From Clostridia bacterium (GTDB lineage: Bacteria; Bacillota; Clostridia; Oscillospirales; Acutalibacteraceae), in assembly GCA_017516965.1 (NCBI GenBank), contig JAFXAP010000015.1, positions 62,001 through 126,000 on the forward strand: a DNA stretch of 64,000 bases. The letters run 5' to 3'. This document shows, in pieces, positions 37,660 through 59,250 of the stretch (position 1 is its first letter; every line of letters starts with the position of its first letter). Position numbers and translations under genes: made by a program. The notes under the pieces were generated by a model. That model did no database searches, had not been told where the DNA came from, and worked only from the letters and a program-made list of their open reading frames with translations.

Positions 37660-37850
37660 TGTTTGCGGGAAATGACTTTTTAAGTCGACCGAAGGAGTAA
37701 CACTCTCAGGTGCCCATTGGGTGAGGACCGTAAGCGGATAGCACTTTGGAGAAGCTTGATTAAATTCAGGTGCCGAAGGGGCAAAGCGTAACTGCATAAA
37801 TCTCTCAGGCAAAAGGACAAAGTTTTAAATTTTACCTTTAGGGGTAATTT
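37660..37850 (+). promoter_or_regulatory. Tandem glycine riboswitch with expression platform
   Basis: Two glycine-type aptamers in series. The first runs about 37660-37735 (CCGAAGGAGTAACACTCTCA core), the second about 37745-37823 (GCCGAAGGGGCAAAGC, then CTCTCAGGCAAAAGGACA). These are hallmark strings of the gcvT/glycine riboswitch class. A hairpin at about 37830-37848 with a T-rich tail probably forms the terminator. The gene downstream is an amino-acid/cation symporter, so glycine probably controls its own transport. Whether binding turns the gene on or off cannot be read from sequence. Confidence 0.9.
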
Positions 37851-45275: not shown

Positions 45276-45296
45276 ATAATTGAGAATTGAAAATTT

Positions 45297-45448
45297 CTGG
45301 GTGTGGCGCAGCTGGATGCTTGGCTTTGCGGGGTCCAGAGCAAAACATCATTATAAATTAAATCACATCTATCCGGGTGTGGCGCAGCTGGATGCTTGGC
45401 TTTACGGGGTCCAGAGTAAAACATCATTATAAATTAAATCACATCTAT
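45297..45448 (+). repeat. Two tandem 76-bp units beginning with the tRNA-Pro 5' part
   Basis: Units 45297-45372 and 45373-45448 differ at only three positions. Each starts with the first 19 bases of the intact tRNA-Pro that follows (one mismatch in unit 1), covering the acceptor 5' strand and D-arm start, then diverges into unrelated sequence. They lack an anticodon stem, T-loop and CCA, so they are not working tRNAs. The unit length equals the 76-nt tRNA. Confidence 0.85.
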
Positions 45449-45524
45449 CCGGGTGTGGCGCAGCTGGTAGCGCGCTTGACTGGGGGTCAAGAGGCCGCAG
45501 GTTCAAGTCCTGTCACTCGGACCA
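45449..45524 (+). tRNA. tRNA-Pro, anticodon GGG
   Basis: A 76-nt cloverleaf with encoded CCA. The acceptor stem pairs 45449-45455 with 45514-45520, with one G-U pair. The anticodon stem CTTGA/TCAAG holds a 7-nt loop with anticodon GGG, and the T-arm has GGTTCAAGTCC. It decodes CCC and CCU. A terminator follows immediately. Confidence 0.95.
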
Positions 45525-45556
45525 AAAATCCTCATTCGTAAGAATGGGGATTTTTA
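45525..45556 (+). terminator. Terminator of tRNA-Pro
   Basis: A stem of about 14 bp with one G-U pair and a GTAA loop, followed by five T residues, directly after the CCA end. Confidence 0.85.
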
Positions 45557-45835
45557 CTTTTTCACTCTTCACTTTTCACTCTTCACTATTCTCTGCATTT
45601 TTTGATAGAGGATTTTTGGAAGTAATAAGTAATAGTGAATAGTGAAGAAGTTCGGTGTCTGCTTCGCAGACTAATTTATAAAATTTCGCAAAATGCCGAT
45701 TTCGGCATTTTCTTTTTTGCGCTAGTTTATGCGTTTTCACATTCTCCAGGTGCTTTTTGCTGATTCAAAATTATTAAACAAACAAGTAACATCACTCCTT
45801 TCTTGTTTGTTGCTATCATAAAACAGTGCATGTTT
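45557..45835. other. Repeat-rich intergenic region beside tRNA-Pro
   Basis: This stretch without a confirmed gene holds TTCACT-type short repeats (45561-45590), an 11-bp inverted repeat (45581-45591 with 45637-45647), a small hairpin (45656-45670) and a terminator-like hairpin with T-run (45690-45718). It also holds a 10-bp inverted repeat (45777-45786 with 45802-45811). On the minus strand, AAAGGAG followed closely by ATG (45795-45793) opens a 21-codon frame ending near 45730. That frame could be a remnant or a tiny peptide; its ribosome-site spacing is too short to be convincing. Confidence 0.45.
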
Positions 45836-45861
45836 ACTATTGGAAAATTTTATGATATAAT
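45833..45861 (+). promoter_or_regulatory. Possible promoter of the zinc-ribbon nuclease gene
   Basis: TTTACT (45833-45838) and TATAAT (45856-45861) with 17-bp spacing, 38 bp before the gene. Confidence 0.5.
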
Positions 45862-45898
45862 TTATAAGTAATAATTTTAAAAGCGAGGTGCCGAAGTT

Positions 45899-47554
45899 AT
45901 GGCAGAAAAGAAATATATAATTGATAATGCCGAACTGATGGCAGAATGGGATTGGGAGAAAAACAAAGACCTTGGATTAGCTCCCCAAAAAGTGACTTGC
46001 GGTAGCGGAAGAAAAGTGTGGTGGAAATGTGCAAAAGGACACCAGTGGGAAGCTACGATAGCCAATAGAATTAATGGCCGCGGATGCCCTTATTGTGCGG
46101 GGCAAAAAGTCTTAATAGGCTATAACGATTTACAAACAGTTAATCCTATTTTAGCAAACGAATGGGATTATGAAAAAAATGATGGATTAACACCCTTAGA
46201 CATAATGCCTAACAGCAATAAAAAAGTATGGTGGAAGTGTAGTAAAGGTCACGAGTGGCAAGCACGAATTGAACATAGAAACAATGGGGTCGGATGTCCA
46301 TATTGCTCGGGTCGATACGCCGTTAAAGGCGAAAATGATTTAGAAACAGTCAACCCCACTTTAGCAAAAGAGTGGAATCACGAAAAGAACGGCGATTTAA
46401 GCCCAGAAAATTTTACTGCAAGTAGTGGACAAAAAGTCTGGTGGAAATGCACCAAAGGGCACGAGTGGCAGGCAGCAATAGCCAATAGAAATAAAGGGCG
46501 TGGATGCCCAGTTTGTAATTCTGAACGGCAAACATCTTTTCCCGAATATGCAATTGTATATTATCTGAAAAAATATGGATTAGATGTAATGCACTCATAC
46601 AGAGGACAAGGTTACGAATTAGACATTTATATCCCATCCAAAAAAACTGCTATTGAATATGATGGTTATTTTTGGCACAAAAACAAAACAAAAAAAGATT
46701 TAGAAAAAAATCTAAAGTGTCAAAAAGACGAAATCAAACTATATAGGATAAGAGAAGGTTTGCCACTCCTGAATGACAGCTCTATAGATTACGTTGTTCA
46801 AGAAAATCAAAAAGATTTACCCATAATACTTGAAGAAATTTTAAGCGAAATAATTGGAACTAGTGTTGATGTTGACTTGGAAAGAGATAGTATTGCCATA
46901 GAAAATTTGCGAGAATATACAGAAAAAGAAAGTTCTCTTTTGTTTTCCAGTCCGGAAATAGCAAAAGAATGGAATTATGAAAAGAATGGAAATTTAAAAC
47001 CGGAACATTTTGCAGAGAATAGCAATAAAAAAGTATGGTGGAAGTGTAGCAAAGGACACGAATGGCAAGCGATAATTGCAAGTAGAAATAACTGGCATGG
47101 ATGCCCATATTGTTCAGGTCAAAAAGTCTTAAAAGGCTATAATGATTTGCAAACAGTTAATCCAGCTTTAGCAAACGAATGGAATTATGAAAAGAATAAT
47201 AGATTAACACCTATGAATGTATCGCCTAATAGTCATAAAAAAGTCTGGTGGAAATGTAGCAAAGGTCACGAGTGGCAAGCTACCATAAATCATAGAAACA
47301 ATGGAAGCGGATGCCCTTATTGTGCGGGGCGATTTGCCGTTAAAGGTAAAAATGATTTGCAAACGGTTAATCCAACTTTAGCAAACGAATGGAATTATGA
47401 AAAAAATGACGGATTAACACCTATGGATGTATTACCTAACAGCAATAAAAAAGTCTGGTGGAAATGCAGTAAAGGACACGAGTGGCAAGCCATAATAGCA
47501 AATAGAAACAAAGGTCGAGGTTGCCCTATTTGTAGAAAAAATAAAGGCAAATAG
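45899..47554 (+). CDS. Zinc-ribbon repeat protein with a central Vsr/DUF559-like nuclease domain
   Basis: I recognise the domains but know no assigned function. Six repeats of about 68 residues each contain VWWKCxKGHxW and GCPYC (Cys, His, Cys, Cys zinc ligands), as in the treble-clef/zinc-ribbon family DUF4379. Three lie before and three after a central segment (about residues 215-325). That segment reads FPEYAIVYYLKKYGL, then YELDIYIPSKKTAIEYDGYFWH, an E-x-D...E-x-D pattern of Vsr/DUF559-like PD-(D/E)xK nucleases. Codon choice (many AGA, ATA) differs from the housekeeping neighbours. The ATG follows GCGAGGTGCCGAAGTT. A second gene follows 21 bp later. A nucleic-acid cutting, possibly defensive role is inference. 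Confidence 0.8.
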   Translation: MAEKKYIIDNAELMAEWDWEKNKDLGLAPQKVTCGSGRKVWWKCAKGHQWEATIANRINGRGCPYCAGQKVLIGYNDLQTVNPILANEWDYEKNDGLTPLDIMPNSNKKVWWKCSKGHEWQARIEHRNNGVGCPYCSGRYAVKGENDLETVNPTLAKEWNHEKNGDLSPENFTASSGQKVWWKCTKGHEWQAAIANRNKGRGCPVCNSERQTSFPEYAIVYYLKKYGLDVMHSYRGQGYELDIYIPSKKTAIEYDGYFWHKNKTKKDLEKNLKCQKDEIKLYRIREGLPLLNDSSIDYVVQENQKDLPIILEEILSEIIGTSVDVDLERDSIAIENLREYTEKESSLLFSSPEIAKEWNYEKNGNLKPEHFAENSNKKVWWKCSKGHEWQAIIASRNNWHGCPYCSGQKVLKGYNDLQTVNPALANEWNYEKNNRLTPMNVSPNSHKKVWWKCSKGHEWQATINHRNNGSGCPYCAGRFAVKGKNDLQTVNPTLANEWNYEKNDGLTPMDVLPNSNKKVWWKCSKGHEWQAIIANRNKGRGCPICRKNKGK

Positions 47555-47575
47555 TAATTGTTGAAAAGGTGAATT

Positions 47576-48286
47576 ATGCAGAATACTTTAACACAATTAG
47601 AAGAAAAGTATTTATTAGAAACCAAGGAGTTCTATTTTCCGTACTTTTCTAACGAAGAAAGTTTAGATTTGTTTATCAACCGTATTTTTAAATTCGATTG
47701 GAACGATAGAAAACCAAGGCAAATGCTTTTTCAAGTACAACGTTTTGTAACGTTAGCTACTGAAATTGATAAAATTCGTCCTGCAAGAGATGGGTTACGA
47801 ATGCTATTTCTAAAGTGCTGTATGGAATCTTTAGCTAAACTATCAGATATGAAAACAACAGCATTTTACAGCTCTTTTGCAACATTTTTTAGCAAAGAAG
47901 GAAAAAAGCATATTTTGGACAAATTTTCTCTTTCCTTTATTGAGCATTCAGAAAATGGCATAGAAATTGATGAAAGTTTTGATCTTTCAATTGATGACAT
48001 TTTATCAATAATAAAAGCAATGCGAGATATGGTTGTACATGAGGGTAATTATTGGGAACTGCAATTTTTTGCATATGACAACGACTCTATATGGTTGACA
48101 CATATAGAAACAAAAGAACCTCTACTATCTAAAAACACATATGCAAATGAATCAAAACAATTAGTTACATATCACTTTGAAACTACATTGCAATATGAGA
48201 ATTTTAAGTACTATTTTGTCGAAGCGTGTATTAATTTTATTAACAATTATATCGATCAATTAGCAGTCCCAAATCGTCCACAATAA
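47576..48286 (+). CDS. Unknown protein with a HEPN-like R-x4-H motif
   Basis: A 236-aa soluble protein I do not recognise as a named family. It is largely helical in the first two thirds. The segment around residues 143-160 reads SIIKAMRDMVVHEGNYW; R150-x4-H155 is the pattern seen in HEPN RNase domains, and helices before it (TEIDKIRPARDGLRMLFLKCCMESL region) fit a HEPN bundle. The ATG follows AAAGGTGAATT and lies 21 bp after the nuclease gene, so the two are probably co-expressed. The final 60 residues contain a small beta-rich part. HEPN assignment is tentative and activity is unknown. Confidence 0.6.
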   Translation: MQNTLTQLEEKYLLETKEFYFPYFSNEESLDLFINRIFKFDWNDRKPRQMLFQVQRFVTLATEIDKIRPARDGLRMLFLKCCMESLAKLSDMKTTAFYSSFATFFSKEGKKHILDKFSLSFIEHSENGIEIDESFDLSIDDILSIIKAMRDMVVHEGNYWELQFFAYDNDSIWLTHIETKEPLLSKNTYANESKQLVTYHFETTLQYENFKYYFVEACINFINNYIDQLAVPNRPQ

Positions 48287-48410
48287 TATATTTCAAATTC
48301 AAAGCAATAGTAAAATTTCATAGTAATCAAAGGATATGTACTGTTTATGGCTGCGAAAAACCTAGTATTTATGCGGCTTTACAGAAAAGTCCTATAAGAG
48401 CACCCCGACC

Positions 48411-48456
48411 AATTACCGAATTGGACCTTTGGGTTCAGTTCGGTAATTTTTTGTTT
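48411..48456 (+). terminator. Terminator closing the two-gene cassette
   Basis: A 17-bp stem with two G-U pairs (48411-48427 with 48432-48448) and a T-run. The 120 bp before it (48287-48410) contain no gene I can support. Confidence 0.8.
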
Positions 48457-48502
48457 TAAAGGATTTTGTCGCTGTGGACTCTTGACCCGTGAGTTTCTGC
48501 AT

Positions 48503-59004: not shown

Positions 59005-59250
59005 TGTAAAGCGTCGATAAGGACAGTAACCTTATAATCACATCTTTCAAGAGAGTGGCTTCATCGGCTGAAAGGGTCACAAGATGCTATAGGGCGAACA
59101 CCACCTTTGAGCGCTGCGGGGTAACAACCGCAGACGTATCCGCTGCGTTAAGGCGTCAAAAGTGCTGTGTTTTTCACAGAATGTGGGTGGAACCACGGAG
59201 AGTATATTACACTTCGTCCCTAGTTTTCTAGGCGACGAAGTTTTTTTATT
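59005..59250 (+). promoter_or_regulatory. T-box riboswitch of thrS
   Basis: Leader with the conserved T-box sequence GGGTGGAACCACGG at 59185-59198, followed by a terminator (stem near 59210-59240, T-run 59241-59247). Upstream, stem I carries an AGGACAGTAA-like element near 59017 and GAACACCACC at 59096-59105, where a Thr codon (ACA or ACC) could be the specifier. Uncharged tRNA-Thr would favour the antiterminator and raise thrS expression. Confidence 0.9.

Follow-up and report, generated by a model that had tools for sequence, protein, structure and literature searches.

A tRNA-docked insertion with a putative DNA endonuclease gene and a HEPN-like gene in a gut Clostridia bacterium

A 2.9-kb insertion at tRNA-Pro(GGG)

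Two adjacent genes, P1 and P2, were found in a 2.9-kb segment inserted at a tRNA-Pro(GGG) gene. The segment lies in the window (the whole 64,000-nucleotide stretch that was analysed), which is part of a 1.62-Mb metagenome-assembled genome of a gut bacterium (G000, contig C15). We give about an even chance to the reading that it is a minimal, tRNA-docked mobile cassette, similar to a cis-mobilizable element (CIME), in which a putative DNA endonuclease of the homing type and a HEPN-like effector serve defence or competition. The tRNA gene, which is the docking site, was located at 45449 to 45524 on the plus strand with ARAGORN and Rfam. In two siblings of the same genus, G328 and G323, a terminator directly follows the CCA end of this tRNA, and in the window it is found 2.9 kb farther on, at 48411. 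The 39 bases from this position match G328 at 37 and G323 at 34, and the best match elsewhere on the plus strand of the window was 27. Since these siblings have empty sites, the stretch from the tRNA CCA to the displaced terminator (45525 to 48411) is a 2.9-kb insertion. P1 was not found in either sibling. The displaced native terminator is a hairpin at 48411 to 48448 on the plus strand, and the region around it (48405 to 48455) gave a z score of -6.9 against shuffles. The original prediction of a gene pair between tRNA-Pro and a terminator was borne out. The 12 bases before it (48400 to 48411, plus strand) agree with the end of the siblings' tRNA at 9 of 12 positions, at the exact junction of the empty site, and appear to be the decayed, displaced 3' end of the tRNA. 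This match is short and decayed and was counted against the cassette reading.

Seven siblings were searched for P1, which was absent in six; in the seventh, G311, a different contig carries a distant match (29%). The tRNA-Pro(GGG) junction is an insertion hot spot. A different insert of ~2.5 kb, with frames of 387 and 347 aa, occupies the same junction in a third sibling, G321 (locus L043), and the native terminator follows it (31 of 39 bases match). Recombinase-like genes were recognised by eye close 3' of the tRNA in five genomes (G322, G349, G325, G066, and G359). The window's downstream genes were found in none of the 40 loci of the genus, within the stretch fetched 3' of this tRNA; 9 of the 40 contigs end less than 500 bases from tRNA-Pro.

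P1 (551 aa) is encoded at 45899 to 47554 and P2 (236 aa) at 47576 to 48286, both on the plus strand. The start of P1 is 374 bases from the end of the tRNA, and its stop is 21 bases from the start of P2. An AGGTG-type ribosome-binding sequence precedes each gene, in agreement with the prediction of two tightly spaced genes with ribosome-binding sites of their own. The G+C contents of P1 (0.37) and P2 (0.30) are both below those of eight measured neighbours (0.40-0.45). The predicted excess of AGA and ATA codons was kept for P1 (AGA in 12 of 21 Arg codons and ATA in 16 of 30 Ile codons) and dropped for P2 (2 of 9 and 5 of 17), which is inside the neighbour range. The corresponding neighbour counts were 3/27 and 11/29 for ffh, 6/17 and 15/32 for alr, and 2/12 and 22/41 for oppA.

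A terminator-like hairpin that came with the insert (45524 to 45555, plus strand) is now directly 3' of the tRNA. A promoter-like site 5' of P1 (45833 to 45861, plus strand; 10/12, with TG) is of a kind no commoner than in shuffles. A 92-base palindromic repeat inside the insert (45559 to 45650) was considered as a marker of cassette ends and dropped, since it is an interspersed repeat of the host genome with 11 BLAST matches in G000, the query itself counted. Its 28-base end recurs 3' of the second gene in L156 and near tRNA-Pro in L048 and L071. Just 5' of the intact tRNA-Pro are two tandem 76-base units (45296 to 45447) that are 96% alike; their start resembles the 5' part of tRNA-Pro, and they are perhaps scars of earlier duplications. 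Seventeen bases 3' of the displaced terminator (48472 to 48488) show 88% complementarity to the tRNA's anticodon-arm region (45484 to 45500); at the corresponding position, both G328 and G323 contain tRNA-like pieces in inverted orientation. The window also contains a T-box leader (59005 to 59224) and a glycine riboswitch aptamer (37736 to 37830).

Domains, motifs, and relatives of P1 and P2

The zinc-ribbon repeats of the original prediction were confirmed, as P1 scored 426 bits for DUF4379 (cut-off 24.5), with six treble-clef domains of this family. The Vsr-like nuclease core that was also predicted lies centrally, at aa 207-344 (46517 to 46930, plus strand), and support for it is weak but consistent. 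P1 alone stayed under the cut-off of the single nuclease models, with 20 bits for MTES_1575 and 12 bits for Vsr. The best solved structure found with a profile of 13 nuclease sequences was 3r3p, "Mobile intron protein" (E = 0.0034), and MTES_1575 matches 11 of the 13 members (best E = 1e-6). The invariant columns of the core in these 13 are S, E, E, D, E, H, and K. E216, D242, E253, and H260 (P1 numbering) are invariant in all 13 and are candidates for the E-D-x-H-D catalytic pattern. We take 3r3p to be I-Bth0305I. I-Bth0305I is given as the prototype EDxHD/Vsr homing endonuclease (PMC3943268).

Homing endonucleases of phage group II introns combine DUF4379-related modules with an EDxHD/Vsr nuclease, and the phage enzymes with such modules form a large unrecognised outgroup, as described previously (PMC12350094). 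Because the P1 nuclease profile is nearest, among solved chains, to a mobile intron protein and because of these phage enzymes, we read P1 as a putative sequence-specific DNA endonuclease. P1 resembles them in its arrays of ~60-aa zinc modules with a Vsr-like nuclease (PMC12350094; PMC3943268). In contrast to them, P1 lies outside introns, and its modules flank the nuclease at either end; moreover, a third of the P1 loci compared are docked 3' of tRNA or tmRNA genes, and their second gene varies. Against the PADLOC models, P1 matched no known anti-phage system and only HEase (E = 0.004). The P1 family was found in 21 of 300 genomes of the taxonomic family and in 54 of 394 genomes of the order and is commoner than P2.

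The predicted HEPN likeness of P2 was upheld for its motif and not for its profile matches. R150 and H155 (R-D-M-V-V-H in P2; 48023 to 48040, plus strand) are invariant in 7 of 7 sequences, namely P2 and six homologues, and fit the R-x4-6-H motif of HEPN ribonucleases. The residue after R in the seven is D, D, D, D, G, N, and C, with a charged or amide residue (D or N) in five, the exceptions being G in G1109 and C in a relative on Vibrio harveyi plasmids. This Vibrio relative is annotated as "HEPN domain-containing protein". Unlike HEPN ribonucleases, P2 and its relatives, singly and as profiles, had no HEPN match in Pfam, NCBIfam, PADLOC, or PDB; this result was counted against the cassette reading. 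The PHROGs search with P2 gave just E = 0.08 and 0.46, to families without known function. P2 was found neither in viral contigs, as a single protein or as alignment A3, nor in phage records.

Four genomes beyond the window's own were found to have P2 in ~1,085 genome searches (overlapping draws): G270 among 300 genomes of the family, G476 among 394 of the order, and G789 and G1109 among 391 of the class. A match in G254 (E = 7.6e-4) was dropped; it overlies a 410-aa frame of a different kind. The contig of G270 ends within P2. In G789 and G1109, the P2 relatives (L200:3024-3722 and L201:3079-3810) lie 15 and 47 bases 3' of MmeI-type restriction-methyltransferases, suggesting that P2 is a companion of DNA-cutting enzymes. 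The MmeI-type enzyme of G1109 is split across two frames, and a DUF2971 gene is found 3' of the P2 relative in L201. The relative in G476 is 5' of a serine recombinase (by eye). PrrC/RloC-type tRNA nucleases guard restriction enzymes. The P2 relatives beside MmeI-type enzymes are similar in that a putative ribonuclease gene adjoins a DNA restriction enzyme, a likeness of gene placement only.

Docking of the P1 family at tRNA and tmRNA genes

Forty-eight P1 loci were compared, consisting of the window, L005, L080, 12 loci from the family search, and the best 33 of 64 from the order search (at least 52 bits). Of the 22 places that the family search gave outside the window's genome, 13 were retrieved, and 12 of these entered the comparison. 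Three loci were not included in the 48: L121 (a weak match to P1 in G247), L081 (in which the contig end truncates P1), and L083. P1 was found just 3' of a same-strand tRNA (16 loci) or tmRNA (one locus) gene in 17 of the 48, with gaps of 77-501 bases; in L005, the gap is 152 bases, or 209 if P1 starts at GTG 3895. The genes at which P1 is docked are of 12 kinds: Pro GGG, TGG, and CGG; Ser GGA; Ala GGC; Leu CAA, TAG, CAG, and GAG; Tyr GTA; Thr CGT; and tmRNA. With a stricter rule, and with the window and L005 removed, P1 was docked in 13 of 46 cases and other genes in 1 of 254 (Fisher p = 6e-11); the controls were the remaining ORFs of these loci with a length of 250 aa or more. L108 (the tmRNA case) and L159 were added as docked after this count. 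The docked loci are not independent, as L110 is close to L120 and L111 to L112. On the P1 tree, the docked label changes nine times (shuffled mean 14.2), and nine members of a clade of 14 around the window are docked. L157 also has an antisense tRNA-Gln farther upstream. The 31 loci that are not docked were counted against the cassette reading. Among publications on tRNA-associated homing endonucleases, elements without an integrase, and zinc-ribbon/Vsr nucleases, judged mostly by titles and abstracts, no tRNA docking of the P1 type was found; T4 SegB is a homing endonuclease of a tRNA region, according to the title of a paper cited in PMC10448857.

A displaced tRNA fragment was detected at the far end in 3 of the 17 docked loci (L120, L110, and L112). 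The 3' part of tRNA-Ala is repeated at the far end of L120 (G291) at 60 of 61 bases, followed by a terminator. The same terminator is directly 3' of the intact tRNA-Ala at the empty sites of G751 and G733, where the junction matches at 95 and 94 of 101 bases, respectively. The fragment of L110 (G292) is 17.6 kb away, in L199, and matches at 56 of 61 bases. L110 and L120 are from different genera, yet their left ends agree at 147 of 148 bases and their right ends, beside the fragment, at 19 of 20. L112 has two degenerate tRNA copies of 17/20 each (shuffle maximum 14). The other 14 docked loci, one of which is the window in this automatic scan, showed no tRNA copy above shuffle level in 0-8.4 kb of downstream DNA (0 in L157), which was counted against the cassette reading. 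A copy in L182 (24 compared to a shuffle maximum of 19), where the 20-base scan found nothing, was not counted because the match stops short of CCA. The cassettes are 2.9-4.9 kb in size.

Seven recombinases from the P1 loci served as phmmer and tblastn queries in a search for further ones; since this set is small, recombinases of other kinds may have escaped detection. A recombinase or its remnant was found downstream in 3 of the 17 docked loci (0-8.4 kb searched). L005 has a convergent tyrosine integrase 3' of P2, at the contig end, L110 has a serine recombinase, and L159 has a C-terminal piece of an L005-type integrase (67% over 75 aa) 33 bases 3' of the docked P1. Another piece of this type (61% over 67 aa) lies 1.4 kb 3' of P1 in L155, which is not docked within its 824 bases of upstream sequence. 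A tyrosine integrase (L199:7704-8816, by eye) is found just past the far tRNA fragment of the L110 element in G292, and the undocked L080 and L109 adjoin serine recombinases. The window's insert has no integrase gene between its ends, and L112 and L120 have no recombinase between the tRNA and the far end. The integrase remnants and nearby integrases suggest integrase-made islands whose integrase was lost or borrowed, and argue against a driving role of P1. The displaced tRNA fragment of G292 also adjoins a gene (L199:3604-7182) for a 1192-aa TIR and NACHT-type STAND-like protein, as judged by eye.

The same gene pair recurs in L005, from a Clostridia metagenome-assembled genome of roe-deer caecum, 3' of tRNA-Pro(TGG), with P1 70% and P2 71% identical and 18 bases between them. 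Homologues are thus paired at least here, and the empty sites of the siblings show that some relatives lack the pair at this locus. The claim of a two-gene system stands only to this extent, as P1 is usually without P2 (a P2-like gene is present in 2 of the 48 loci, the window and L005) and P2 relatives occur without P1 (at the two MmeI-type loci and the serine recombinase locus). Among docked loci, the partner is a DUF2513 protein in L151 (63 bits) and, by eye, in L156; a DUF4062 protein (54 bits) with a STAND-like NTPase region in L120; proteins of 368 aa, 261 aa, and 121 aa without known family in L112, L111, and L108, respectively; and a protein with a sub-threshold HNH_5 match in L182. 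The undocked L109 has a DUF3644 gene 3' of P1 that scored 491 bits to the defence candidate PDC-S19 and is unrelated to P2, and the undocked L116 has a NOV_C gene upstream of P1 with 109 bits to PDC-S36. In L081, a methyltransferase and a Vsr-like gene lie ~3.5 kb before the P1 relative (by eye). P1 is without a methylase partner to shield host DNA, and this was counted against the cassette reading. The occurrence of P1 relatives behind many tRNA genes with changing partners points to small mobile defence cassettes. The predicted mobile-element role is well supported by the sibling empty site, the absence of P1 from G328 and G323, and the many tRNA genes used by P1 relatives; the predicted defence role is suggested by association with the partner genes.

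Possible explanations and their meaning

In the reading we favour, a minimal mobile cassette would have integrated in the 3' end of tRNA-Pro(GGG), with P1 and P2 as its cargo. The cassette may be CIME-like and have lost its own integration genes, or it may be moved by the tyrosine integrase of another element that uses the same tRNA site. A CIME-type loss of integration genes is suggested by the integrase remnants of L159 and L155, and the window matches in gene content. CIMEs (PMC5704250) would be alike in keeping recombination ends without integration and transfer genes and in their tandem position beside an integrase-bearing region, as in G292. The P1 cassettes differ from CIMEs in being very small and in having a nuclease gene as the recurrent first gene, and their mobilisation is presumed. 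The regenerated tRNA and displaced fragment of L120, L110/L199, and L112, decayed in the window, resemble the tRNA and tmRNA islands found by Islander, which needs an integrase between the ends (PMC4383910), in contrast to the window, L112, and L120. P1 would be a sequence-specific EDxHD/Vsr homing-type endonuclease whose treble-clef array reads DNA, and it may cut competing DNA, either of phage or of elements aiming at the same locus. P2 would be a HEPN-type ribonuclease, a second, RNA-cutting effector that backs the DNA-cutting enzyme, and its relatives beside MmeI-type restriction enzymes may play the same backing role.

Another possible explanation, which we consider unlikely, is that P1 acts as a homing endonuclease on unoccupied tRNA genes and that, after the cut, homologous repair guided by the cassette's own tRNA fragment copies the cassette in, so that no integrase is required. 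P1 lies beside the tRNA on the same strand in 17 of 17 docked cases, the three cassettes without a recombinase would fit, and so would the mobile intron protein as the best PDB match and the phage homing enzymes of like architecture (PMC12350094). However, seven kinds of tRNA or tmRNA gene within one clade of 14 would be odd for a site-specific homing enzyme, and a tRNA that is intact after insertion would remain a target. Integrases or remnants near P1 in L005, L159, and L155 also speak against it. Because of the remnants beside two P1 genes and the tyrosine integrase just past a third cassette's end, in G292, P1 as the driver is less likely than the CIME-like reading. A bolder version, in which P1 is the mobility enzyme, directed at tRNA and tmRNA genes, and uses the cassette's tRNA fragment to place an exchangeable defence gene behind them without an integrase, seems slightly more doubtful still.

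It is rather unlikely, in our judgement, that P1 and P2 are not one system, with P1 a selfish nuclease that settles at the edges of mobile elements and P2 an independent accessory gene behind it. This would account for the loci in which one occurs without the other and for the many other second genes of P1, or none. It does not explain why the pair is kept in two genomes at 70-71% identity, 18-21 bases apart, behind two different tRNA-Pro genes, or why P2 is in the same place 3' of a DNA-cutting enzyme at two MmeI loci. Finally, two open, conserved frames with ribosome-binding sites would by themselves fit a core operon, but an ordinary conserved locus or an annotation artefact is very improbable given the empty sites in siblings, the absence of P1 in six of seven with a 29% match elsewhere in the seventh, and the finding of P2 in only four further genomes in the ~1,085 overlapping searches.

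Searches that require an integrase, such as Islander, would miss tRNA islets of 3-5 kb that lack such a gene. If many such islets carry a homing-type nuclease first and a changing second gene, they would be a ready place to seek small defence systems and would raise the question of what moves them. The presence of P2-family genes 3' of P1 as well as of MmeI-type restriction enzymes suggests an uncharacterised RNA-cutting partner for enzymes that cut DNA.
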